Source: an uncultured Anaerolineae bacterium (lineage in GTDB: Bacteria; Chloroflexota; Anaerolineae; Anaerolineales; Villigracilaceae). Taken from it: a stretch of DNA of 64,000 bases. A program made the position numbers and the translations under genes. Shown piece by piece: positions 16,442 through 26,726 of the stretch (its first letter is position 1; every line of letters begins with the position of its first letter). Location of the stretch: the NCBI GenBank assembly GCA_903822545.1, contig CAIJPN010000121.1:1-64000 (forward strand), given 5' to 3'. Below the pieces are notes generated by a model. It was not told the origin of the DNA. It worked only from the letters and a program-made list of their open reading frames with translations, and made no database searches.

Positions 16442-18088
16442 TTACTGGGTTCGGTACTCCCGGAAGCGCCGGGCTGTACTCCCCGCAATTGACATGAGAA
16501 TCCCCGGGCTCTGGTAGCAAAGCAGGCGCAGGTCATTATCCTTGATGACCATACAAACCGAAGGGACAATGGCCCGAACGGTGGCCACGCGGGAACCTTT
16601 GGTCAGCCAGGCAATTTCTCCAAAAACCTGGCCGGGTTGGATGATGGAATTTTCCGCTTTTTCAGGGGTGATAGCTTCCAATTGTCCTTCGAGCAGGATA
16701 AAAACATCGTTGTTGTTTTCCCCTTCCCATACCAGGGTTTCCCCGGCTGCATAGATCACTTTGTACAGCTTGCGAGCCACCTCAAGCTGGATTTCTGGCG
16801 AAAGGGAACGGAACAGCTCCAGTTTATCGAGGGTCTCAAGCTGTTTGATGGTATTTTGAACCGGGTTGGGGGCTGGATTGTTGACCTGGGCCCAAATTTG
16901 CATATCCTCGCTTGAGGGCAAATCTTCCGGAAGCTTAATATCGGGCAGGATGCTGGCGCGCGCAATGCGCCCGGGGAAGATTTCGCGCACGAATGGCGAG
17001 GCCATGCTGATCATAAAGTTCAGGGGGTCGGTGGCCCGATCGTTCCAGGTAGCCAGGAAGTCGAAATTCAACTCGGCGGCATCTTCCACATCCCGCATCA
17101 GGGCCTGGTGGTTTTTCTTCAGGTAATCGAGCAGCAGGGCGCGATAGCGCTTGTAAAAGTAACGGCTGACCGTGATAGAGACCGGGGCGGCCTCCTGCGA
17201 AGCCTTGAAACAGGCATAAATGGCGCGGGATTTATAGGTTTCTGGCAGGGAAATTTCCAGCAGCTTGGGGGCAATGTTCAGGGATCGGCGGGCAAATTCA
17301 TCCACATAACTGGCTTCCTGGCTATTCATCACCAGGTAGACCCAGCCAATCTGGTAGTAAATATAGCGGGCCGTATCACTGGCATATTGCTCGTTGAAGT
17401 GGGCAATCAAGTTGCGGCGTTTTTGCAATCGTTCCTGGACATCATCCGATAGGCTGCCGCTGCGCTTGAGCATCAAGGTCGCCGAGGCGGAATCAGATGC
17501 GATACCCTGCGCCATGCGAAAGTTGATCATATCTTCGTTGTTGAGTTGTTTGGATGTGTGCAGGGCATGGGCGATATCGTAATACGAATCGACGGCATCT
17601 TGCCCCAGGCCAATTTGCGCGCCCAGTTTTTTCATCGATGTTTCTAAGAATTGAACTGCAAAGGCTTTTTCTGCGGGCGGCAGGCGGTGTTTGTTGACGG
17701 CAGCAGCCATTTTGTTGGCAAGCTGTTCTTCGTGCCAGCTATCTTCGGTAAACTGGCCGTAGCGGTGACGAAAATGATGGGTCATCTCGTGCGCCACCAC
17801 GAAGGGGATGAAAATCGCCAGGAAGCGCATCAACGTCTCGCTGCTATCAGCGCCCATCATCTGACGCATCATGAGCAGTTGTAGTTTGCCGGTTGGGGCC
17901 TTCAGGTCTGGCATCGAAAGGTAGATTTGCCGGTCGTTGAAATCGTAATAGCACAGCAAGCCCGCGCCTTTGTGCAGTTTCATCTCCGGGTCGCATTCGA
18001 TGCCATAGGCCGCAAACTCTTTCTTAAAATGCTCCAGGGCTTGCAGGCCAATCTCAAACAAATCTGGGATGGATTGGGATTCGCTCAT
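16442..18088 (-). CDS. Metallopeptidase-like protein with C-terminal cyclic-nucleotide-binding domain
   Basis: 548 residues. Residues 100-104 read HEMTH within FVVAHEMTHHFRHRYG, and acidic residues follow at 120-121 (WHEEQLANKMA), the layout of a gluzincin zinc site (HExxH plus a downstream Glu). The middle is helical and unrecognised. Residues about 420-548 form a cNMP-binding domain with FGEIAWLTKGSRVATVRA, which keeps the Glu and Arg of the phosphate-binding cassette, so cAMP or cGMP binding is plausible. Its ATG overlaps the previous stop (ATGA). It is last in a cluster of terpene-type enzymes. It could be a nucleotide-gated protease or a zinc-containing scaffold. No signal peptide or membrane helix. 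Confidence 0.75.
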   Translation of the reverse strand: MSESQSIPDLFEIGLQALEHFKKEFAAYGIECDPEMKLHKGAGLLCYYDFNDRQIYLSMPDLKAPTGKLQLLMMRQMMGADSSETLMRFLAIFIPFVVAHEMTHHFRHRYGQFTEDSWHEEQLANKMAAAVNKHRLPPAEKAFAVQFLETSMKKLGAQIGLGQDAVDSYYDIAHALHTSKQLNNEDMINFRMAQGIASDSASATLMLKRSGSLSDDVQERLQKRRNLIAHFNEQYASDTARYIYYQIGWVYLVMNSQEASYVDEFARRSLNIAPKLLEISLPETYKSRAIYACFKASQEAAPVSITVSRYFYKRYRALLLDYLKKNHQALMRDVEDAAELNFDFLATWNDRATDPLNFMISMASPFVREIFPGRIARASILPDIKLPEDLPSSEDMQIWAQVNNPAPNPVQNTIKQLETLDKLELFRSLSPEIQLEVARKLYKVIYAAGETLVWEGENNNDVFILLEGQLEAITPEKAENSIIQPGQVFGEIAWLTKGSRVATVRAIVPSVCMVIKDNDLRLLCYQSPGILMSIAGSTARRFREYRTQ

Positions 18089-19005
18089 GCTGTTAGTGCT
18101 GCCAGTTTGGCCAGGGCTTCCATACCCTCGAGCGAGGTTTTTGCCCGCGTCTCGAACAGTGCGGAGCGTTCATCGAGATATTTCGCCAGTTCCGGGCAAT
18201 CCAGGGTGTCGGCCAGGTCTTGCGCGTCGAGCATCCAGGCGCGCAGCTGGTTGCAGCCCTGCGAAAAGCCTTCGCGGATGATCCACTCGAATTCGCTTTC
18301 GGTAGGACGTTTCAGCCGCCGGGCTTCAGACAGGAAGTAGGTCTGGTTGCCGCTCTGGCTGTCTTTGTGCCAGTCGAAGACATCGTTGAACATCTGGTGC
18401 CATTTGCCGATGCGGTGAACAAACTCCAGCCAGGGAGCCATCACATCGGTGCGGTTGTGATAATGGCAGATGGCTGCCACGGGAATCATGGCGGCGCTGA
18501 CCTTTTGGGCTGAGAGCATTTCGAAGGCGTTCAGGTCAATTTCGGCCAGCCGGGCATCGCCGATGGCTGCCTGGGCGGTGCCAAACCAGACTTTGCGGTG
18601 CAAGGCCCAGAAGGGGTGGTCAAGCGGGAAATATTTCTGGTAGGAGGTCTGGAACTCGGTATGGAAAAATGCCAGCGCCGGGAGCAGTTTTTTCTCCACT
18701 GTGGCTTCATCATCCATAACGTTGTCAATCATGCGGATGAAGTAATAGCCGTTGATGGACGAGTAGGCGATATCGAACTGCAGGGATGGATCGGGTTCGC
18801 CGCGCAGGCTTTGCTCTGCCCACCAGGGCAGCAGGAGCGTGGGAAAAGCCAGGGGATGTTTGAAATAGGCTTCGGGGGCGAGGCCACCTGCCAGGGATTG
18901 CATCCAGGCCTGGATGGGCGGATGCAGTTCCGGGGCGGTTTGCTCCAGTTCCCCGAGCAGCCGTTCGATGGATTGGGTAATCAGTTGCGAGAGTTTTTCA
19001 TCCAT
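18085..19005 (-). CDS. Class I isoprenoid/terpene synthase-like protein
   Basis: 306 residues from ATG 19005 (AGG seven bases upstream); the longer frame reaches into the previous gene without a ribosome site. All helical. Two acid-rich motifs sit where class I enzymes bind Mg-diphosphate: IDNVMDDE (residues 93-100) and GKWHQMFNDVFDWHKD (200-215), the latter close to the GxxxQxxDDxxD of polyprenyl synthases with Asn for the first Asp. No standard DDxxD/NSE pair, so it is a divergent member, either a synthase or a prenyl-binding relative. The second motif region also resembles the N-terminal half of the next upstream protein. It is coupled to the cNMP protein by an ATGA overlap. Substrate unknown. 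Confidence 0.6.
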   Translation of the reverse strand: MDEKLSQLITQSIERLLGELEQTAPELHPPIQAWMQSLAGGLAPEAYFKHPLAFPTLLLPWWAEQSLRGEPDPSLQFDIAYSSINGYYFIRMIDNVMDDEATVEKKLLPALAFFHTEFQTSYQKYFPLDHPFWALHRKVWFGTAQAAIGDARLAEIDLNAFEMLSAQKVSAAMIPVAAICHYHNRTDVMAPWLEFVHRIGKWHQMFNDVFDWHKDSQSGNQTYFLSEARRLKRPTESEFEWIIREGFSQGCNQLRAWMLDAQDLADTLDCPELAKYLDERSALFETRAKTSLEGMEALAKLAALTA

Positions 19006-19058
19006 AAGGAACCTCGTGTGATGCAGCGTAAGAATGTAACGCCAGATGTGATCTTGCG

Positions 19059-20951
19059 CTACGCGTGGGCCTGGATTTGCCTGAGCGCGTGATAGCAAAA
19101 TGCGGTGGTAATACTGCGGCTTTTATGCCAGGTGGTGGATAGTCCGCGCCCAGAGGGGGTGATGTAGATGGGTTCGCCGGGCCAGCAGCCATCGAAATTC
19201 TGGTTTTTGAACAGGATGGTGCGCCAGCGTGAGTCGTAGGGCAGGCGAGGATCATTGGCGCAGAAGCTGGAAAGCGTCAGGAAGGCGGCATTTTGTGGGG
19301 ACAGGTTGGGGCGTTGGGCTTCGCGGGCCAGGCGCTCGATGAAAAGGTCTGAAACCTGCGTCAGTTTTTGGCGCAGCCCGGCAGGAGCGGGGAAATCGGC
19401 CAGGCGGGCGAACAGCTCCAGCCCGGCCCACAGGCTGAAGAGCGGGGTGTAATGTTCGGTCGCCCCTAGTCCAACAGTCAGCCAGCGGTTGGCCAGGCTT
19501 TCGGCACAGGTTTCGATGATGTCGCGGTAGCTTTCACGGTCATGACCGAGCAGGCCCGTCAGCAGGTTGGTTTCGACGGTGGCACAATCGTTGCCATAGA
19601 GTACCGCGAGAGGCGACAATTCACCGCCTGGCCAGTCGTTTTTGCGAAACCAGACCGAGATTTGCCCATCGGCGCGCTGGTTTTGGCGCATCCAGCGCAG
19701 GGGGGCTTGCAGTAATTCTGCGTGGAAATCCCGGCGGGGCGAGTAGGGCAGCATGCGCAGGGCAAAAGCCAGGGTATCGGCATCGGGGGTGAGGTGGGTG
19801 GTGTTGCCGTTGTAGTAACGGAAGCCGCTTTGACGGCAAAGCTCAAAAATGGTTTCAACCTGGGCGGAAACATGGTGCCCGTATTTTGCCAGGATTTCAA
19901 CGATGAGTGCTGTGGGAAATGCCTGCCCGGTCAGGATGGGAAAATCTGCAAAAGTGATGCGCTGGACTTCCCAGGCTTCGTAATAAGTAGGGTCGGCCAG
20001 CAGGTAGCCTTCGGCTTTGGCGATGACATCGCTCAGGATGTCGTGGGCCGGGGTGAAGAAGGCGCGCAACCTGTCCTGCCCCGGCACAGGTTGGGTGCGC
20101 AGGGAAAATATTCCGCGCACTTGCTGGATCAGGGTATCCACTTTGGCGCAGAAGGCCAGGAAGGAGGGCAGGTTGAGTTCGGCGGCCAGGGCGCGGGCGC
20201 TATCGGTCTGCTGCTGGCATTCATCCAGCAGTTTTGCGCCGGTGCCGGTGAAGGCCAATGCGCCGAGCACGAATTCGCTGGTGATTTTGGATGGGTCGGT
20301 GACACGGACGGCCTGTAAGGCGCGCTGGATGGGCTGGGAGATGCGCCCGTCGCGGCAATCACGCCGCAGGTTGGAAAGCTGCTCGACCATCTGGAAAACG
20401 CCCTGGAGGTGGGCGGACATTTCCAGCAGGCGCGGAAGCTCGGATTGGTGCCCAAGCGCCCGGGCGGAGGCGATGAGTGACAGGGTGGCGATGGCCCATT
20501 GATTGGAAGGCAGTTTTCGGGTTGACTGATAGGATTCCCAGAAGTGGGAATCGTTCGGGGCGGCCTGTTCCCAGTGGAAATGGGCCTGCCGGGAGAGCAC
20601 GTCGGCCAGTTCCTGGTAAGAATCATCAAAAAATTCGTAGCCATCCACGATATAACGTTCGGTTTGAATCGCCATGAATTGGAACAAGGTGGCGCACAGA
20701 ATGTGACTGGCCCCCAGGGCATGAGGCGCGCCCCAATCCTTGTACAGCCAGAAGTGCTGGTCGAGCAGGGGGTAATCTTGTGGGCGGCATAAGATATCTT
20801 TAAACTGGCCGCTCTCAGCGTATTGCAGTGCCAGGTTGTGCCTGAGCAGCATGGACTGGTGGAACAGGTCGACGGGCAGGGTGTTGAAAAATTTCTGGGC
20901 GGCGGGCCAGGCCTGGCTGCGCAGGGCTTGAAGGGAGGCATTATGTGTCAT
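19059..20951 (-). CDS. Two-part terpene-cyclase-like protein (class I-like half plus class II-like half)
   Basis: 630 residues. The ATG (20951) overlaps the methyltransferase stop as ATGA, which fixes the start. The N-terminal 280 residues are helical, with EFFDDSYQE (106-114) and QLSNLRRDCRDGRISQP (191-207), the second like the second Asp region of phytoene/squalene-synthase-type enzymes. The C-terminal 300 residues look like an alpha/alpha toroid of squalene-hopene/class II diterpene cyclases: TPDADTLAFAL (388-398) gives a DxDT acid motif, and WHKSRSITTAFCYHALRQ (608-625) and NQNFDGCWPG resemble the family's C-terminal repeats. It may protonate and cyclise a prenyl chain. Whether the N-terminal half is catalytic is unclear. 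Confidence 0.6.
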   Translation of the reverse strand: MTHNASLQALRSQAWPAAQKFFNTLPVDLFHQSMLLRHNLALQYAESGQFKDILCRPQDYPLLDQHFWLYKDWGAPHALGASHILCATLFQFMAIQTERYIVDGYEFFDDSYQELADVLSRQAHFHWEQAAPNDSHFWESYQSTRKLPSNQWAIATLSLIASARALGHQSELPRLLEMSAHLQGVFQMVEQLSNLRRDCRDGRISQPIQRALQAVRVTDPSKITSEFVLGALAFTGTGAKLLDECQQQTDSARALAAELNLPSFLAFCAKVDTLIQQVRGIFSLRTQPVPGQDRLRAFFTPAHDILSDVIAKAEGYLLADPTYYEAWEVQRITFADFPILTGQAFPTALIVEILAKYGHHVSAQVETIFELCRQSGFRYYNGNTTHLTPDADTLAFALRMLPYSPRRDFHAELLQAPLRWMRQNQRADGQISVWFRKNDWPGGELSPLAVLYGNDCATVETNLLTGLLGHDRESYRDIIETCAESLANRWLTVGLGATEHYTPLFSLWAGLELFARLADFPAPAGLRQKLTQVSDLFIERLAREAQRPNLSPQNAAFLTLSSFCANDPRLPYDSRWRTILFKNQNFDGCWPGEPIYITPSGRGLSTTWHKSRSITTAFCYHALRQIQAHA

Positions 20952-21751
20952 AGTGGTTTGCGGGCGCGGAGGTGGGCCGGGCAAAATTCGCCAGAATCGA
21001 GCAGGCGCAGCATGGTGCGGTGATAAGCGGATGCCATGCGCAAGATGCGCTCATCGTTGTGGTGGATTTGCATCAGGCGCTTGCGCAGGGGACCCTCCAT
21101 CTGGTTGAGTTCGCTTACGGCTTCCTGGCGATACCAGTCTGCGCGATGCGTCAGTGTAACCGGGGTGAATCCGCTTTGGGAGAGCATACCCCGAACCGTG
21201 GATAGATGTTCAAAGGTGATCGGCAGATTCATGGACGAGGCCCAGATGTGGAAGGCGTTGGAAAGCGGGCGGTCGCCGCTCATCCAGTCGCTGGCCAGTA
21301 GCCAGCCGCCGGGCTTCAGCACACGGTAAATTTCCTGGAAGATGGCAAATTTGTCATCCACTTCGTTGAGGGCTTCTTTGCTGAATACAATGTCAAACGT
21401 GTTGTCAGCGAAGGGCAGCGGGCCGCGCTCAACCAGGGTGGGGCAAACCCTGGCGCTTAATCCCTGGCTGGCGATATATTGCCGGGCGCGCTCAACCTGC
21501 CCAGGCTGGATGTCGATGCTGGTGATGCTGTTTGCGCCGCACTCGCGCACCAGCGTGGCCGCGGGGCCGCCAATGCCGCAGCCAATATCCAGCACATCCA
21601 GCCCGTGCAGCGGGATACCTTCCACGATACGGGCCACTTCTGCCGGGCCGCCGGGCGAGATGAAGCCCTCGCCGTAGACTTGGGCGAAGTGCGCCACGAG
21701 TTGGTCGCTGTAATAATTAATGCGATGTTCTTCAATCAAGGTTGGGTTCAT
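20948..21751 (-). CDS. Class I SAM-dependent methyltransferase
   Basis: 267 residues. Motif I is VLDIGCGIGGPAATLVRE, motif II SITSIDIQPGQVERARQY, then PFADNTFDIVFSKEALNEVDD and VLKPGGWLLASDWM, giving a complete Rossmann-type methyltransferase core. The GCGIGGPA version of motif I is shared with phosphoethanolamine, dimethylglycine and geranyl-diphosphate methyltransferases. It starts 9 bp after the P450 stop and its own stop overlaps the cyclase start, so it belongs to the terpene-type operon. A role in methylating either the prenyl diphosphate before cyclisation or the product afterwards is an inference from context. Confidence 0.88.
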   Translation of the reverse strand: MNPTLIEEHRINYYSDQLVAHFAQVYGEGFISPGGPAEVARIVEGIPLHGLDVLDIGCGIGGPAATLVRECGANSITSIDIQPGQVERARQYIASQGLSARVCPTLVERGPLPFADNTFDIVFSKEALNEVDDKFAIFQEIYRVLKPGGWLLASDWMSGDRPLSNAFHIWASSMNLPITFEHLSTVRGMLSQSGFTPVTLTHRADWYRQEAVSELNQMEGPLRKRLMQIHHNDERILRMASAYHRTMLRLLDSGEFCPAHLRARKPL

Positions 21752-21760
21752 TGTTCTTTA

Positions 21761-22951
21761 TCAAAGCGTCACGGGCAGGCTGGCCAGCCCGCGCAGGCAG
21801 GAGTTGGGATTCCAGTTGGGTGTCTCGCTGGCGAGTTGCAGGTTTGGCAGTTTTTCAACAACTTTGCCGAACCCGATGCGCCCTTCGACACGGGCCAGCA
21901 CCGAGCCCAGGCAAAAATGAATCCCCACCCCAAAAGCGATGTGCCGGTTGGGCTGGCGGGTGATGTCGAAAAAATCTGGGTTTGGGAAGTGGATCGGGTC
22001 GCGGTTGGCTGCTCCCAATAGTGCGGTGATTTGCTGCCCCTGCTGAATCTCAGCCCCGCCCAGGCTGAAATTTTCTGCCGCAACCCGAAATGTGGCCTGC
22101 TGGAGCGGGCTTTCGTAACGCAGGATCTCTTCGACGGCGCCGGGCAGGTGCTCAGGCTGGCGTTTGAGCAAATCCCATTGTTCGGGGAAACGCAGCAGGG
22201 TTAACATGCCGTTGCCGAGCATGTTGGCAGAAGTTTCGTGCCCGGCGATCAGCAGCAGGATGCAGGTGCCAACCAGTTCCGTTTCGCTCAAGCGGTTTGC
22301 ATCGTCGCGCACCGCAATCAGGTCGCTGATCAGGTCGGCGCGCGGATTTTTACGCCGCTCAGCGATTAACCCGCTGAAATAATCGGCCAGGGCTTCGATG
22401 GCGCGCTGTGAACCGCTGCTAATATCGCGCCCCGGCTGGTTGGCATCCCCGCCCATGATGACCTGGTTGGATAAATCGCGGAACCTGTCCCGGTCTGTCA
22501 GCGGCACGCCCAGCATTTCGGCGATGATAATGACCGGCAGCGGCAGGGCAAAATCGGTGATGAAATCGGCCTGGCGGCGCTGGCGCAGCTGATCGAGCAA
22601 TTCATCCGCCACCCGGGCAATGCGCGGCTCCATGGCATGGATGCGCGCCGGGGTAAACGCCAAACTGACCAGCGCCCGCAGGCGGGTGTGGTCGGGTGGG
22701 TCTTTGCTCAGCATAGCATGATTGACCGGGGTGACGCGCTCGGCTGGCACAATGCGGCTGATATCTTTAGAAACGCGCGCTTCTTTCAGGATGGCAACCA
22801 CATCATCGTAGCGGCTGAACAGCCAGGCGCCACCTGTTGCGCCGGGGTTGGCAAGCCAGATCGGGAAGGGAATAGCCTGCAAACGCCGGTAAGCAATGTA
22901 AGGGTTGGCGATCAAAGCCATTGTGGGTGAAGCGCTCAGGGTCGGGTTCAC
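21761..22951 (-). CDS. Cytochrome P450
   Basis: 396 residues when started at GTG 22951, which has CAGGA six or seven bases upstream; an alternative TTG lies at 22966. The I-helix motif LLIAGHETSANML, the K-helix EEILRYESP (ExxR) and the haem loop FGVGIHFCLGSVLAR (FGxGxHxCLG with the axial Cys) are all intact. No N-terminal membrane anchor, so a soluble class I-type enzyme needing ferredoxin partners encoded elsewhere. It probably hydroxylates or oxidises the product of the downstream cyclase. It is the first enzyme gene after the four small proteins and is separated from them by a strong hairpin. Confidence 0.93.
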   Translation of the reverse strand: MNPTLSASPTMALIANPYIAYRRLQAIPFPIWLANPGATGGAWLFSRYDDVVAILKEARVSKDISRIVPAERVTPVNHAMLSKDPPDHTRLRALVSLAFTPARIHAMEPRIARVADELLDQLRQRRQADFITDFALPLPVIIIAEMLGVPLTDRDRFRDLSNQVIMGGDANQPGRDISSGSQRAIEALADYFSGLIAERRKNPRADLISDLIAVRDDANRLSETELVGTCILLLIAGHETSANMLGNGMLTLLRFPEQWDLLKRQPEHLPGAVEEILRYESPLQQATFRVAAENFSLGGAEIQQGQQITALLGAANRDPIHFPNPDFFDITRQPNRHIAFGVGIHFCLGSVLARVEGRIGFGKVVEKLPNLQLASETPNWNPNSCLRGLASLPVTL

Positions 22952-22968
22952 AGAGAGTCCTGTCAAAT

Positions 22969-23005
22969 ACCACAGGCCGCCAGGATGAGCCTGGCGGCCT
23001 GTGGT
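22969..23005 (-). promoter_or_regulatory. 16-bp hairpin between the small-protein genes and the P450 gene
   Basis: CACAGGCCGCCAGG (22971-22984) and CCTGGCGGCCTGTG (22990-23003) pair perfectly around a 5-nt loop, and two more pairs extend the stem to 16 bp. It lies 14 bp after the last small-protein stop and ends before the P450 ribosome site. No T-run follows on the minus strand, so it looks like a 3'-end stabiliser or attenuator rather than a full terminator. Such hairpins commonly give an upstream gene higher mRNA than its followers. Confidence 0.75.
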
Positions 23006-23019
23006 GTTATTCCAAAAGG

Positions 23020-23226
23020 TTACAGTGCCGCGCGATCGTCACCAAAGGTAGCAGCCAGGTGCTTGAGCGAATTGGCATCCACATCTTTTAGCGCATCCAA
23101 CATTTCGGGGGTGGCTTCGACACCAATCCCTTTCAGTGTCTCGGTAGGATTATCCGCCAGGGATTTGGCAAAAACTTCGTCAGTCATGACGCGGTTAATC
23201 AGGTTCTGGAAATCAGTTTGGGTCAT
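23020..23226 (-). CDS. Small NHLP-like protein, copy 4 of a tandem set
   Basis: 68 residues, no Cys. It shares the pattern of the other three copies: MTQTDFQNLINRVMTDE, then FAKSLADNPTETLKGIGV, TPEMLDALKDVD and a short tail GDDRAAL. The spacing of hydrophobic residues, the FxxxLxxxP..xL centre and the single domain resemble the leader region of NHLP/Nif11-clan RiPP precursors (Os1348- or Franean1_4349-like families). There is no GG site and no core region after it. Last of four in transcription order. Its ribosome site is weak (AAGAG). The function is unknown. Confidence 0.75.
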   Translation of the reverse strand: MTQTDFQNLINRVMTDEVFAKSLADNPTETLKGIGVEATPEMLDALKDVDANSLKHLAATFGDDRAAL

Positions 23227-23244
23227 GATGGCAACTCTTGGTGC

Positions 23245-23451
23245 TTAGAATGCGGCGCGATCATCGCCAAAGGATGCGGCCAGCTGTTTGAGCGAATTGG
23301 CGTCCACGCCTTTCATCGCTTCCAACATCTCGGGGGTGGCATCCACGCCGATGCTTTTCAGCGTTTCAGATGGGTTGTCGGCCAGGGCTTTAGCAAAAGC
23401 TTCGTCGGTCATCACTTTGTTGATCAGGTTTTGGAAATCGTTCTGGGACAT
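23245..23451 (-). CDS. Small NHLP-like protein, copy 3 of a tandem set
   Basis: 68 residues, no Cys, with AGGAG before the ATG. Very close to the copy at 23020 in both protein and DNA: MSQNDFQNLINKVMTDEAF, ALADNPSETLKSIGV, TPEMLEAMKGVDANSLKQLA, tail GDDRAAF. The pair looks like the most recent duplication of the set. NHLP/Nif11-clan leader-like domain without a modifiable core. The repeated, separate reading frames, each with its own start and stop, argue against a decayed fusion. Expressed together with the neighbouring copies upstream of the hairpin and the P450 gene. Confidence 0.75.
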   Translation of the reverse strand: MSQNDFQNLINKVMTDEAFAKALADNPSETLKSIGVDATPEMLEAMKGVDANSLKQLAASFGDDRAAF

Positions 23452-23487
23452 TTTGAACTCCTAAAAATTGAACTGAGGGTTAGAAAT

Positions 23488-23694
23488 TTAGCCTGCGGCT
23501 TTTTCTTCGCCAAGCGAAGCAGCCAGGTTGCGGATGGCGGAAGCATCTACGCCTTTGATAGCATCAAGAAATTCGGGGGTTGGGGTAATGCCCGCACTAA
23601 TCAACGCCTGTTCAGGATGTTCAGCGAGCGATTTGGCAAAAGCATCATCAGAGAGCACTTTGCTCACCAGGGTTTGAAAATCGGTCTGGGTCAT
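23488..23694 (-). CDS. Small NHLP-like protein, copy 2 of a tandem set
   Basis: 68 residues, no Cys, AAAGGG before the ATG. Starts MTQTDFQTLVSKVLSDDAF, continues SLAEHPEQALISAGI, TPEFLDAIKGVDASAIRNLA, tail GEEKAAG. More distant from the copies at 23020 and 23245 than these are from each other, and nearer to the copy at 23721 in the AIRNLA/SIRNLA segment. Same NHLP-clan leader-like pattern. It may be a precursor, a carrier or a structural small protein; nothing in the sequence decides. Confidence 0.75.
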   Translation of the reverse strand: MTQTDFQTLVSKVLSDDAFAKSLAEHPEQALISAGITPTPEFLDAIKGVDASAIRNLAASLGEEKAAG

Positions 23695-23720
23695 ATTTTC
23701 CCTTTCTATTGGATTATTTT

Positions 23721-23930
23721 TCAGGCGGCGGCTGCCTGGTCACCCTTGAACGAGGTGGCCAGGTTGCGGATGGAATCAACATCCACCCCCTTGAGCGCAT
23801 CCATTATCTCAGGGGTGGGTTCAATCCCGGCATCTTTCAACGCCTGCGCAGGATCACTGGCCAGGGACTGAACGAAAGCGTCATCAGACATAACTTTGTT
23901 CACAAGGGTTTGAAAATCTGACTGGGGCAT
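23721..23930 (-). CDS. Small NHLP-like protein, copy 1 of a tandem set
   Basis: 69 residues from ATG 23930, chosen for the GGAGG seven nt upstream; the frame stays open further but through the promoter. First gene after the leftward promoter. MPQSDFQTLVNKVMSDDAF, SLASDPAQALKDAGI, TPEIMDALKGVDVDSIRNLA, tail KGDQAAAA. It has the strongest ribosome site of the four, so is probably the most abundant. The tail differs from the others and ends in four alanines. Same NHLP-clan leader-like domain, with no GG cleavage site, Cys or Ser/Thr-rich core. Confidence 0.77.
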   Translation of the reverse strand: MPQSDFQTLVNKVMSDDAFVQSLASDPAQALKDAGIEPTPEIMDALKGVDVDSIRNLATSFKGDQAAAA

Positions 23931-23973
23931 GGGTTCCTCCATAATAAAATGAGTAATAAAACTTACCGTAACA

Positions 23974-24002
23974 AATATCAGTATACTGAATTCGCCTGTC
24001 AA
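23974..24002 (-). promoter_or_regulatory. Promoter of the small-protein/terpene-type operon with palindromic operator
   Basis: On the minus strand a perfect TTGACA (24002-23997) is followed after 17 nt by GATATT (23979-23974), 4 of 6 matches to the -10 box. The perfect 12-bp palindrome TCAGTATACTGA (23978-23989) fills the spacer and touches the -10 box, the position of a repressor or activator site. The start of transcription would fall near 23967, giving about a 37-nt leader before ATG 23930. Confidence 0.6.
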
Positions 24003-24011
24003 ATTCGCGGG

Positions 24012-24033
24012 TTTTGTTGACTCTTTTGTTGAC
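24012..24033. repeat. Direct repeat TTTTGTTGAC in the divergent control region
   Basis: TTTTGTTGAC occurs at 24012-24021 and again at 24024-24033, a 12-bp period. It lies between the leftward operon promoter and the rightward regulator promoter, so may be a binding site for the XRE-type regulator encoded next door. The second copy contains TTGACA on the plus strand, but no good -10 box follows at 17 nt. Confidence 0.4.
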
Positions 24034-24056: not shown

Positions 24057-24085
24057 TTGCAAATCAGCCGATAAGCCTGTAAAAT
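24057..24085 (+). promoter_or_regulatory. Candidate leaderless promoter of the XRE-STAND regulator
   Basis: TTGCAA (24057-24062), a 17-nt spacer and TAAAAT (24080-24085, 5 of 6 matches) end 7 nt before the ATG at 24093. Transcription would start at about the A of that ATG. No Shine-Dalgarno sequence precedes either ATG 24084 or ATG 24093, which supports a leaderless message. Confidence 0.5.
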
Positions 24086-24092
24086 GCTTGTT

Positions 24093-26726
24093 ATGGAATC
24101 ACGCCATTCCTTGCCTGAAACCTTCCGCACTTTTGGCGAATTATTGCGCCACCTGCGCGAACGCGCCGGGCTGACCCAGCGTGAACTTGCCCGGCAGGTG
24201 GGGTACCACTACTCCTATATCAGCCGCTTGGAAAAAAACGAACGCAGCCCCGATGCCTCCACGCTGGAGGCTCTTTTTATCCCTGCCCTGGGGCTGGAGG
24301 ATGAACCCCGCTGGATCGGGCGCCTGCTCAACCTGGCGCGGGAGGAGGCTGCGGGGATTCCAGCGCCAGGCAGCCAATCCGCCCTGCCGCCTGATTCCGT
24401 TATCGAAGAATCCCTGCACCTGCTGCCAATCAGCCTGACGCCCTTGCTGGGCCGCGAACAAGAAACAGCGCGCCTGGAACAGCTTCTCAGGGATGAAAAA
24501 ATCCGGCTCATCACCCTGGTTGGCGCGCCGGGGGTTGGCAAAACCCGCCTGGCCCTGCACCTGGCGCACCAGATGCAGGAATACTTCCCAGGCGGCGTGC
24601 TGTTCATCGATTTGACCCGCGCCAGCGATGCCCGGGGCGTGCTGCCAGAAGTGGCAGGTGTGCTGGGATTGCCCGAAGCCTCCGAAGCCCAAATGCTCAC
24701 GCGCATTGTGAACGTGCTCAAACAAAAAAGCATCCTGCTCGTGCTGGATAACTTCGAGCACGTGCTGGATGCCGCCCCCAAAGTAGTTTTGATGATTGGG
24801 AACAGTCCCGGGGTGCGGGCACTGGTCACCAGCCGCGAAGCGCTCAACATTCCAGGCGAGGTTGAATTCCCACTTCACCCGCTGCCCGTTCCCAGGGCAG
24901 ATGATGAAGCCCTCGAGCGGGCGGCATCCATCCAACTGTTTATCCAACGCGCCCGGGCTGCCCAGCCCAATTTCCAATTGACTGGCGAAAACCGGCAGGC
25001 TGTGGCCGAAATCTGTCGCCGCCTCGACGGCTTACCGCTGGCAATCGAACTGGCCGCGCCGCGCGTCAAGGCGCTTTCACCCCAGGCCATGCTGCGCCAG
25101 TTTGAGCGCCGCCTGGATTGGGCTGCCCGCAACATCCATACACCCCGCCAGACCCTGCGCGGCGCGCTGGATTGGAGCCATAACCTGTTGACCGAAAAAA
25201 GCCAGGCGCTTTTGCGGCGTCTGGCGGTTTTTTCGGGCGGATGGATGCTGCCCGCCGTCGAAGCCATCTGCGCCAGTGACGATGAAGCCGATATTCAGCC
25301 GGGTGAAGTGCTCGACCTGCTGATGCAGCTGGCAGATAAATCAATGATCGTGGCAGAACCGCAGGGCAGCGAAACGCGCTATCGCTTCCTCGAAACCATC
25401 CGCGATTTTGCGCGCGAAAAGCTGGCCCAGGCGCACGAAATCGAGCGATACCGCAGCCGCCACCTGGCGCATTTTGCCGACATGGCAGAAACCATCGAAG
25501 CGCACATTTTCCATCCAGACCGCATGGAGTGGGTGCTCTCGGGCGAACAGGAACACAGCAACCTTATCGCCGCGCTGGAATGGGGGCTGCACCACCCGCC
25601 CGCCCGGCGTGACGGCATGCGCCTGGCAGCTGCCATCAACCTGCCCTGGCTGGCGCGCAGCCGCTTTCGCGATGGTTTGGAATACGCCCGCGCCTATCTC
25701 GAAACCCCGGATGATGCGCCCGAATTGCAACTCCTGCGCGCCCGCCTGTTATATGGCGCGGGAGCGATGGCCGGGCGCATGTATGACCACGTTACCGCCC
25801 GTCAGTTGACCAGCGAAAGCCTACCAATTTGCCGCGCGATGGCAGATACGCCCAACCTGGCGCGGGCGCTCTACCATTTCGGAGAAGCCTGTTACCATCT
25901 CAAGCAGCTCCCCGAAGCCCGCGCCGCGCTGGAAGAAAGCCTGGGGCTCTGGCGAGAACTGAACGAACCCATCAAACTGGCGCGCACCCTGTGCATGCTT
26001 GGCCTGGTGCGCTACGACGAAGGCGATTATAAAAACGCCTGCCAGATTTTACAGGAAGCCCTGGACCTGGCCACCACCCTCCGCGAGGCGTGGACGACCA
26101 GCCGCGCCCTGCTCGACCTGGGCACCATCCATCGTTATCACGGCAATATCCCGGCTGCAACCGATTGCTTCTTGCGCAGTCTCGACCACCGGGGCGATCC
26201 AAACGCTGAAGCCACCGCCGCCGCCAACCTGTCCATCCTGTTCCACCTGCAAAAAGAGTACGTCCGCTCGGGCGAATACGCCGAACGCATGTTTAGCATC
26301 TTCCAATCGCTCGGAGATGAAATCCAGCTGCCCTTCCCGCTGCGGATGATGGCTTATGCGGCAATCCACGCCGGGGATTTTGACCGCGCCCGCAGCCTGA
26401 TGCGCGAAAGCCTGGCCGGGAATCGCGCCCTGGGGCATCTCCCCGGGCAACTGGCCTGTCTCGTCACAAAAGCCTGGTGCCTGCTCGCGAGGGCAGAAAC
26501 CTCGCAGGCGGTGGCCCTGTGCGCCCTGGTAGAAACACTCATGACCCAGGGTGGGTACAGCTTTATTGAACCCGATGCCAAATCCCTGCGCGAAACACTC
26601 AGCGCCGGGCTGGATTTACTTGGCCGCGAAGCATATGAATCTGCCTACCAGTTGGGACGATCCTTAAACGCCGAAACTGAAATCCTTCACCTGTTGGGGG
26701 ATCCTGAAACTTTACCAACGGCCTGA
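24093..26726 (+). CDS. XRE-HTH / STAND NTPase / TPR transcriptional regulator
   Basis: 877 residues from ATG 24093 (chosen from the promoter position; ATG 24084 also possible). Residues about 10-70 form a Cro/CI-type helix-turn-helix (LRHLRERAGLTQRELARQVG, SYISRLEKNERSPD). An NB-ARC/STAND ATPase follows: LVGAPGVGKTRLALHLA (Walker A), SILLVLDNFEH (Walker B), ALVTSREAL and LPLAIELAA. The C-terminal half has TPR-like helical repeats (ARALYHFGEACYHLKQLPEA and similar). STAND regulators are inducer-gated switches that oligomerise on ligand and ATP. It is divergent from the small-protein/terpene-type operon with only 162 bp between starts, so it is the probable regulator of that operon and of itself. 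Confidence 0.88.
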   Translation: MESRHSLPETFRTFGELLRHLRERAGLTQRELARQVGYHYSYISRLEKNERSPDASTLEALFIPALGLEDEPRWIGRLLNLAREEAAGIPAPGSQSALPPDSVIEESLHLLPISLTPLLGREQETARLEQLLRDEKIRLITLVGAPGVGKTRLALHLAHQMQEYFPGGVLFIDLTRASDARGVLPEVAGVLGLPEASEAQMLTRIVNVLKQKSILLVLDNFEHVLDAAPKVVLMIGNSPGVRALVTSREALNIPGEVEFPLHPLPVPRADDEALERAASIQLFIQRARAAQPNFQLTGENRQAVAEICRRLDGLPLAIELAAPRVKALSPQAMLRQFERRLDWAARNIHTPRQTLRGALDWSHNLLTEKSQALLRRLAVFSGGWMLPAVEAICASDDEADIQPGEVLDLLMQLADKSMIVAEPQGSETRYRFLETIRDFAREKLAQAHEIERYRSRHLAHFADMAETIEAHIFHPDRMEWVLSGEQEHSNLIAALEWGLHHPPARRDGMRLAAAINLPWLARSRFRDGLEYARAYLETPDDAPELQLLRARLLYGAGAMAGRMYDHVTARQLTSESLPICRAMADTPNLARALYHFGEACYHLKQLPEARAALEESLGLWRELNEPIKLARTLCMLGLVRYDEGDYKNACQILQEALDLATTLREAWTTSRALLDLGTIHRYHGNIPAATDCFLRSLDHRGDPNAEATAAANLSILFHLQKEYVRSGEYAERMFSIFQSLGDEIQLPFPLRMMAYAAIHAGDFDRARSLMRESLAGNRALGHLPGQLACLVTKAWCLLARAETSQAVALCALVETLMTQGGYSFIEPDAKSLRETLSAGLDLLGREAYESAYQLGRSLNAETEILHLLGDPETLPTA

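Follow-up and report, generated by a model that had tools for sequence, protein, structure and literature searches.

An operon of isoprenoid-type enzymes and tryptophan-free NHLP proteins in an uncultured Anaerolineae bacterium

The DNA analysed here, referred to as the window, comprises positions 1 to 64,000 of contig CAIJPN010000121.1 (assembly GCA_903822545.1), from the 5.5 Mb genome of an uncultured Chloroflexota bacterium of the class Anaerolineae. It contains a nine-gene operon extending on the minus strand from position 23930 down to 16442, and this placement, proposed in a first-pass annotation made from the letters alone, was confirmed for all nine genes. The products are four small proteins of the NHLP clan (NH1 to NH4), a cytochrome P450, an S-adenosylmethionine (SAM)-dependent methyltransferase, a cyclase-like protein (CYC), a class I-like enzyme (CLSI), and a HEMTH metallopeptidase-like protein with a cyclic-nucleotide-binding (cNMP) domain, hereafter the cNMP protein (Table 1). 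The oddity of the locus is that its NHLP proteins lack tryptophan and carry a conserved tail in place of a variable core. Comparison with related loci suggests that a peptide-modification pathway was here turned to another terpenoid use.

Table 1. Genes and sequence features of the operon region in the window
Feature	Position	Strand	Evidence
NH1, 69-aa Os1348-family NHLP-clan protein, tail FKGDQAAAA	23721..23930	-	NF038399 E 3.2e-17, 62.3 bits
NH2, 68-aa NHLP-clan protein, tail LGEEKAAG	23488..23694	-	NF038399 E 4.6e-15
NH3, 68-aa NHLP-clan protein, tail FGDDRAAF	23245..23451	-	NF038399 E 6.3e-17
NH4, 68-aa NHLP-clan protein, tail FGDDRAAL	23020..23226	-	NF038399 E 3e-15
Cytochrome P450, start uncertain (TTG at 22966, further starts inside)	21761..22966	-	PF00067 E 1.6e-30
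SAM-dependent methyltransferase, Methyltransf_11 type	20948..21751	-	PF08241 E 5e-22
CYC, 630 aa, trans-IDS-like domain and class II terpene-cyclase domain	19059..20951	-	AlphaFold model, pLDDT 78.6, pTM 0.53
CLSI, 306 aa, stand-alone trans-IDS-like class I enzyme	18085..19005	-	AlphaFold model, pLDDT 90.4; motifs
HEMTH metallopeptidase-like protein, 548 aa, C-terminal cyclic-nucleotide-binding domain	16442..18088	-	PF00027 E 1.8e-15
Promoter-like site 5' of NH1, TTGACA-17-GATATT	23974..24002	-	Consensus scan, 10/12 matches; weak evidence
16-bp perfect RNA hairpin between NH4 and P450 genes, no T-run after it	22969..23005	-	RNA folding
Divergent HTH/NB-ARC/TPR regulator, candidate operon regulator	24084..26726	+	PF13560, PF00931, PF13424

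Folds and motifs of CLSI and CYC

AlphaFold models of CLSI and CYC were built on nine-row alignments. The CLSI model has the fold of a trans-isoprenyl diphosphate synthase (IDS), with a VIA Z score of 21.7 and a root-mean-square deviation (rmsd) of 2.8 over 269 residues; Z values of about 13-14 are common for helical bundles, and those of both CLSI and CYC exceed that level. The first motif (DNxMD) and the second (NDxx[D/G]WxxD) are present in all nine aligned CLSI proteins, in which D95, D99, Gln205, N208, D209, W213 and D216 are kept without exception. Since both acidic motifs are preserved throughout, CLSI looks active. The invariant Gln205 lies three residues before the second motif and may correspond to the Gln of PalQ and Ord1.

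CYC is a fusion of two domains. Residues 1 to about 277 form an IDS fold (Z 19.4, rmsd 2.5 over 255 residues, polyprenyl synthase 4jyx_F), and residues from about 302 to 631 resemble squalene-hopene cyclase 8paj_A (Z 25.9, rmsd 3.4 over 304 residues) as well as MstE and the drimenyl synthases (Z 24-25), displaying the alpha/alpha toroid of a class II beta domain. The arrangement of the domains is left open, because the pTM is only 0.53. MstE and the drimenyl diphosphate synthases are monodomain class II cyclases, from which CYC differs in its additional IDS-like domain and its NHLP partner. In the N-terminal domain the first Asp is replaced in eight of nine proteins (by Glu in four) and the Trp in all nine, and judged by these residues the IDS-like half looks like a scaffold. 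The DxDD motif of the C-terminal domain is found in seven of nine; the window copy reads DADT and that of its nearest relative (L023) DIDA, both keeping the first and third positions. On this pattern activity of the cyclase half is probable, though less certain for the window copy. Both genes, which the first-pass annotation had called cyclase-like and class I-like, therefore encode prenyl-diphosphate-synthase folds, joined in CYC by that of a class II cyclase.

Neither protein of the window matched any Pfam family over the cut-off, and sequence searches of the PDB with each returned nothing usable. SQHop_cyclase had no match at E 1 in the nine CYC proteins, while distant fusions in L036 and L037 passed, and the eight other CYC proteins gave stray weak Pfam matches only. 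A scan of viral contigs found no relative of CYC. Pfam Terpene_synth_C was uninformative, having no match anywhere in the window genome with the controls equally silent.

The small proteins and the module across genomes

All four small proteins exceed the cut-off of NF038399, the NCBIfam model of the Os1348-family NHLP clan (54-62.3 bits against 40), in accordance with their first-pass reading as tandem NHLP-clan proteins of 68-69 residues. Between NH3 and NH4 the nonsynonymous divergence (dN) is 0.113 and the synonymous (dS) 1.25, a ratio near 0.09; on these values and the NF038399 scores the small genes look real. A profile of 13 NHLPs from the module described below matches the Os1348 crystal structure 6lk7 (E 8e-7, 60 positions). 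Together the 13 aligned proteins comprise 875 residues, none of them Trp, Cys or Tyr and only three, at scattered places, His, and a further module NHLP from genome G200, outside this alignment, is free of all four residues. Among the 13, of which 12 are complete, a related tail of the type FGExxAA-hydrophobic recurs with variations, one of its positions being interchangeably Gln, Lys or Arg. The leader followed by a variable core bearing the modified residue, which marks a precursor of a ribosomally synthesised and post-translationally modified peptide (RiPP), is seen in none of the 13, nor is there among them a Trp-containing precursor next to CLSI. The earlier description of these proteins as NHLPs without a core thus holds.

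The small proteins could nevertheless be RiPP precursors, with Ser, Thr, Lys, Arg or the C-terminal carboxylate instead of Trp as the site of prenylation or terpenylation, which the HEMTH protein then releases. The tandem array of four copies, each ending differently (AAAA, AAG, AAF, AAL), resembles one of precursors, a related tail ends the complete module NHLPs, and the locus is akin to systems that modify their NHLP, namely those of PalX and of the Trp-bearing NHLPs of this class. This is rather unlikely: the residue counts above leave no conserved classical nucleophile, the Gln/Lys/Arg position of the tail is interchangeable, and the peptide prenyltransferases of this type described so far act on Trp (see below). 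No exporter was recognised by eye in the gene lists of the module, and no search aimed at exporters was made.

The distribution of the module was compiled from a class-wide CYC search (6 of 298 genomes), a scan of GTDB contigs with CLSI (9 loci) and later searches. Eight of the nine loci in the contig scan lie in metagenome-assembled genomes of Chloroflexota, assigned to Anaerolineales, Ardenticatenales, Herpetosiphonaceae or 'Chloroflexi'; the ninth, a distant one, is labelled 'bacterium'. CLSI was found in 12 genomes altogether: the window, JABTUK (G278), JABTUW, RFJF (G104), JACPVC, BPHZ, JACCSL (G166), RFJV (G143), JAEURL, G269, G261 and G200. All 12 have the cNMP protein (partial in G269), 11 a module-type NHLP and 10 CYC, and the partner proteins are 31-67% identical to the window copies. 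The NHLP adjoins another module gene in 10 genomes, and in the window the P450 and methyltransferase genes intervene. This bears out the co-occurrence of small proteins and enzymes in relatives on which the first-pass reading depended. The commoner gene order is CLSI, cNMP, NHLP, CYC; the window and JACPVC have a second order, NHLP, CYC, CLSI, cNMP. Conservation of the module does not extend to the P450 and the methyltransferase; a methyltransferase is further encoded in L025, L128 and the related cluster L130, and in G261 a methyltransferase fragment follows the cNMP gene.

These data also bear on a simpler explanation, in which a class I enzyme, a class II enzyme, a P450 and a methyltransferase form an ordinary small-molecule terpenoid cluster and the NHLPs and the cNMP protein are regulators or passengers. 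The two tailoring enzymes suit terpenoid chemistry, and NHLPs of the family are found so widely in this class, in 93 of 199 genomes at E 1e-5 and in 64 above the cut-off, that they could adjoin the enzyme genes by chance. What makes this explanation unlikely is that 11 of 12 genomes retain the NHLP in the operon despite the deep divergence of the partner proteins, that the tailoring enzymes are not conserved in the module, and that by profile CLSI is closer to an IDS encoded next to NHLPs (57.9 bits) than to Pfam SQS_PSY (13.9 bits).

Relatives that act on tryptophan

The CLSI profile finds an IDS-like protein adjoining two Trp-ending NHLPs. A search with this NHLP-adjacent IDS gave matches in 19 of 298 genomes, of which 13 carry 14 loci of its clade (L104-L116, L123) and the other six have module genes or more distant IDS proteins. 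Every one of the 14 loci has an NHLP beside the IDS, by construction in L104 (the same place as L080), which was found via its NHLP, and they are candidate prenylation pairs of the PalQ/PalX type; the IDS of G030 (L116), which gave two separate partial matches, may be a broken gene. Of 17 NHLPs beside a homologous IDS, 16 carry Trp among their ten C-terminal residues and nine end in it, compared with 7 of 26 (five more having it at the eleventh) and 1 of 26 among control NHLPs from stretches that lack a homologous IDS, all counts being taken from open reading frames with uncurated ends, with the module NHLPs L057 and L060 excluded from the control, and with L124 (the same gene as L116) and the module loci L125 and L127 omitted from the IDS set. 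A membrane protein of about 360-415 residues, possibly a receptor, recurs beside these NHLP-Trp/IDS pairs; that of L139 (7437-8528) has no Pfam match, and look-alikes were seen by eye in L132-L136, L138, L140 and L083.

Pairs of this kind are known from Paenibacillus alvei, where PalQ, an enzyme of isoprenoid-synthase fold, prenylates the C-terminal Trp of the NHLP precursor PalX in a cluster described as having three genes, for a histidine kinase, the NHLP and the prenyltransferase (PMC10853753). PalX and PalQ thus show the same pairing as the 14 loci; PalX ends in the Trp that PalQ targets, whereas the module NHLPs have none. A second precedent is ChrPC, a trans-IDS-like P domain joined to a C domain, which modifies a RiPP precursor at Trp and also cyclises the prenyl group (PMC13290415). 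By the description in that review, ChrPC has the same plan as CYC, an IDS-like domain fused to a cyclase, but its P domain is active on the precursor Trp, while that of CYC is partly degenerate and accompanied by a separate P-like protein, CLSI. The same source likens the C domain of NctPC, a sister fusion with another P fold, to MstE, and reports that Ord1, which has the same fold as CLSI, farnesylates free Trp; it also states that every characterised trans-IDS-like peptide prenyltransferase targets Trp (PMC13290415). The Os1348 cluster of Pseudomonas sp. Os17 shares the NHLP family and a HEXXH-motif protein with the module, but pairs them with an acetyltransferase and a SagB-type dehydrogenase, and the available part of the report describes no prenyl enzymes (PMC7726476).

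The enzymes and the type of system are of known kinds, and IDS-cyclase fusions in RiPP clusters have already been published. The first-pass annotation had proposed either a terpenoid pathway using small carrier proteins or a RiPP-like system with prenyl-type chemistry, and had regarded both as undocumented; the enzyme folds and their co-occurrence with the small proteins stand, but for the RiPP half the claim of novelty was wrong, as PalQ/PalX (PMC10853753) and ChrPC (PMC13290415) are in print. In the open-licence PMC literature no report was found of split enzymes together with a Trp-less conserved NHLP and a linked pair of nucleotide cyclase and cNMP-HEXXH protein.

Homology further links CLSI, the CYC N-domain and the NHLP-adjacent IDS to fusions of IDS and squalene-hopene cyclase at radical SAM RiPP loci. 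In a tree of 39 rows (38 different, as L116 and L124 are one gene, whose second motif did not align in either row), CLSI, the CYC N-domain, the NHLP-Trp IDS and the radical SAM fusions form four groups, each with support of at least 100/99. The distant fusions lie in RiPP-like loci with varying gene sets (L037:8949-15946, L036:6174-13057, L038, L039, L040 and L028). Radical SAM/SPASM maturases are encoded near those of L037 and L028 (domain scans) and of L036, L039 and L040 (by eye), with none seen in the 9 kb of L038, and M50-type peptidases near those of L037 (scanned) and L036, L038 and L028 (by eye). Cys-containing precursor-like peptides occur in L036, L037, L038, L039 and L040, and the five tandem ones in L037 all end in Trp. 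A search of the fusions' class with the radical SAM-linked fusion matched 9 of 47 genomes at E 1e-10, two of them with full-length fusions; the other seven matches cover about 110-233 of the 718 profile positions and, on that coverage, are taken to be squalene-hopene cyclases. L037 also carries a gene for a Rce1-like CAAX protease, and its second IDS-cyclase fusion (L037:11760-13930), split over two overlapping frames with one internal stop, may be broken or mis-sequenced. In L131 (229-6600) a stand-alone IDS-like protein without a cyclase domain is encoded near radical SAM and M50-like proteins. The cluster L130 (162-3510), in which a separate IDS, a class II cyclase-like protein (DLDDT), a methyltransferase and an NHLP ending in VLGWN follow in a row, is a bridge between the window module and the NHLP-Trp systems.

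Cyclic-nucleotide partners, expression and proposed pathway

The first-pass reading of the last gene of the operon, a protein with a HEMTH zinc motif and a cNMP domain, was borne out. HExxH and W-x-EEQ-x-AN are invariant in all nine aligned cNMP proteins (H100-E101, H104, E120-E121), so that each has HExxH with a downstream Glu, the hallmark of HEXXH zinc metallopeptidases, and is a putative enzyme of that kind. Peptidase-type Pfam matches were weak (DUF4344, E 0.0064, and M78, E 0.22, in one of nine each), and the N-terminal 400 residues of the HEMTH protein returned nothing usable from PDB sequences. The C-terminal domain has the FGE...R.ATVRA cassette, which we take to be canonical, in all nine, and its best PDB matches are regulatory subunits of PKA.

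In seven of nine testable loci of the commoner gene order (those with sequence upstream of CLSI; L025 could not be judged), the gene directly 5' of CLSI encodes a class III nucleotide cyclase. These neighbours (L020, L021, L022, L024, L026, L027, L129) are proteins of about 1400 residues with nucleotide-cyclase, AAA and TPR domains, as scanned in L021 and L024. The same kind of cyclase genes, along with large and regulator-sized cNMP proteins, adjoin other NHLPs of the class, indicating that the partnership is wider than the terpenoid module; cNMP-domain proteins of 1036-1177 residues, for example, lie beside NHLPs in L071, L075, L076 and L081. On contig C111 of the window genome (L071:6993-7814) long repeats of the GANVQGAQVAGAN type extend from an NHLP leader as far as the end of the contig, and this gene adjoins a 1081-residue cNMP-domain protein and a regulator-sized one.

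The closeness of cyclase and cNMP-protein genes would also suit a module for cyclic-nucleotide signalling or defence, with the HEMTH/cNMP protein as effector and the terpenoid enzymes making a membrane-active lipid. This is highly unlikely, since the window operon has no cyclase gene. Still more improbable is a terpenoid nanocompartment of the 2-methylisoborneol/encapsulin kind, for which a weak match of the cNMP domain to the family 2B encapsulin model NF041163 could be cited: the score of 32.2 bits is far under the cut-off of 400 and the match is confined to the cNMP region. Family 2B encapsulin was rejected because none of the nine proteins encoded by the operon, to which the check was limited, is a shell protein. 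The first-pass link to 2-methylisoborneol synthases comes down to a generic cNMP domain, and cNMP proteins beside NHLPs are the nearer precedent. A further comparable system is NHLM-type bacteriocin transport with cNMP domains, TIGR03896 having matched weakly; there too cNMP-domain proteins stand beside NHLPs, that of the module being a HEXXH protein of about 550 residues.

The identities assigned earlier to the P450 and the SAM methyltransferase were upheld by their Pfam matches. The nearest solved structures are PksS and CYP267B1 for the former and phosphoethanolamine N-methyltransferase for the latter. The stop-start overlaps reported by the first-pass annotation are present as ATGA at the methyltransferase/CYC and CLSI/cNMP pairs; its single promoter was not borne out, as promoter-like sites in the scanned region (both strands) number 6 against 3.8 expected by chance. 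The site listed in Table 1 is the sole one upstream of NH1 on the minus strand. Folding of the RNA of 22940-23019 gave a minimum free energy of -41.4 kcal/mol (z -8.0), and the hairpin within it is possibly an attenuator or mRNA stabiliser. Its position between NH4 and the P450 gene means that small genes and enzymes may differ in expression level, and it could serve to make NHLP in excess of enzyme. Upstream, the window has the divergent regulator instead of a cyclase gene, and 21 class III cyclase matches lie elsewhere in its genome.

The operon is best read as an offshoot of machinery that attaches isoprenoids to the Trp of RiPP precursors and cyclises them, a reading to which we give a probability of about 0.45. 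All characterised enzymes of the kind target Trp and the module NHLPs have none, which suggests that the enzymes stayed and the acceptor left. From the computed folds, motifs, gene linkage, absence of Trp, and linkage of nucleotide cyclase and cNMP protein, a sequence of five steps may be proposed. CLSI would ionise a prenyl diphosphate and pass the prenyl group to an acceptor, and the class II domain of CYC would then protonate and cyclise the prenyl chain, its IDS-like domain acting mainly as a scaffold. The NHLPs, having no Trp to accept the group, would be docking or carrier partners of CLSI and CYC; their relative Os1348 is reported to be a stable homodimer. The acceptor would probably be a small molecule, perhaps an indole, by analogy with the action of Ord1 on free Trp. 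The HEMTH/cNMP protein would cleave or release the NHLP upon a cyclic-nucleotide signal, which in most relatives would come from the cyclase encoded next door, and in the window the P450 and the methyltransferase would decorate the product. More tentative is the specific version in which loss of the core turned a RiPP precursor into a nucleotide-gated carrier or activating subunit dedicated to terpenoid enzymes, and a free acceptor took the place of the peptide Trp in the reaction.

Several observations weigh against the offshoot reading. The order among the four IDS clades is poorly supported (68/36), and descent from a Trp-modifying ancestor is something we infer. A Gln upstream of the second motif, linked in print to Trp recognition, is invariant in CLSI, yet Val takes its place in all 13 IDS rows beside Trp-bearing NHLPs, showing that the Gln motif does not track the acceptor in a simple way. 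The N-domain of CYC is partly degenerate but not erased, with Glu for the first Asp in four of nine proteins, D99 in seven and D216 in all nine, and the DADT and DIDA motifs of the window and L023 mean that these two copies may have reduced class II activity or none. The module is also incomplete in places: CYC was not found in G143 (RFJV) or G261, the 81%-complete genome G261 has no module-type NHLP at E 1e-6, and in G200 CYC (L014) stands on a separate contig with no NHLP upstream, CLSI, cNMP protein and NHLP being on other contigs. An adjacent nucleotide cyclase is absent from the window, G261 and G200.

Only recently has terpene-type chemistry been discovered on ribosomal peptides, and few enzyme families that carry it out are characterised; a by-product of this study is a list of candidate NHLP-Trp prenyltransferases at 14 loci within a single class of Chloroflexota. 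In the module the same enzyme folds appear split and recombined, and the leader is kept despite the loss of the acceptor residue. If the proposal is true, the leader has stayed as an obligatory partner of terpenoid enzymes and is handled under the control of a cyclic nucleotide that the product of an adjacent gene makes, and terpenoid synthesis would be tied to cyclic-nucleotide signalling through a metallopeptidase-like protein. Should the leader prove to be a carrier or an activator, RiPP leaders can outlive their cores.

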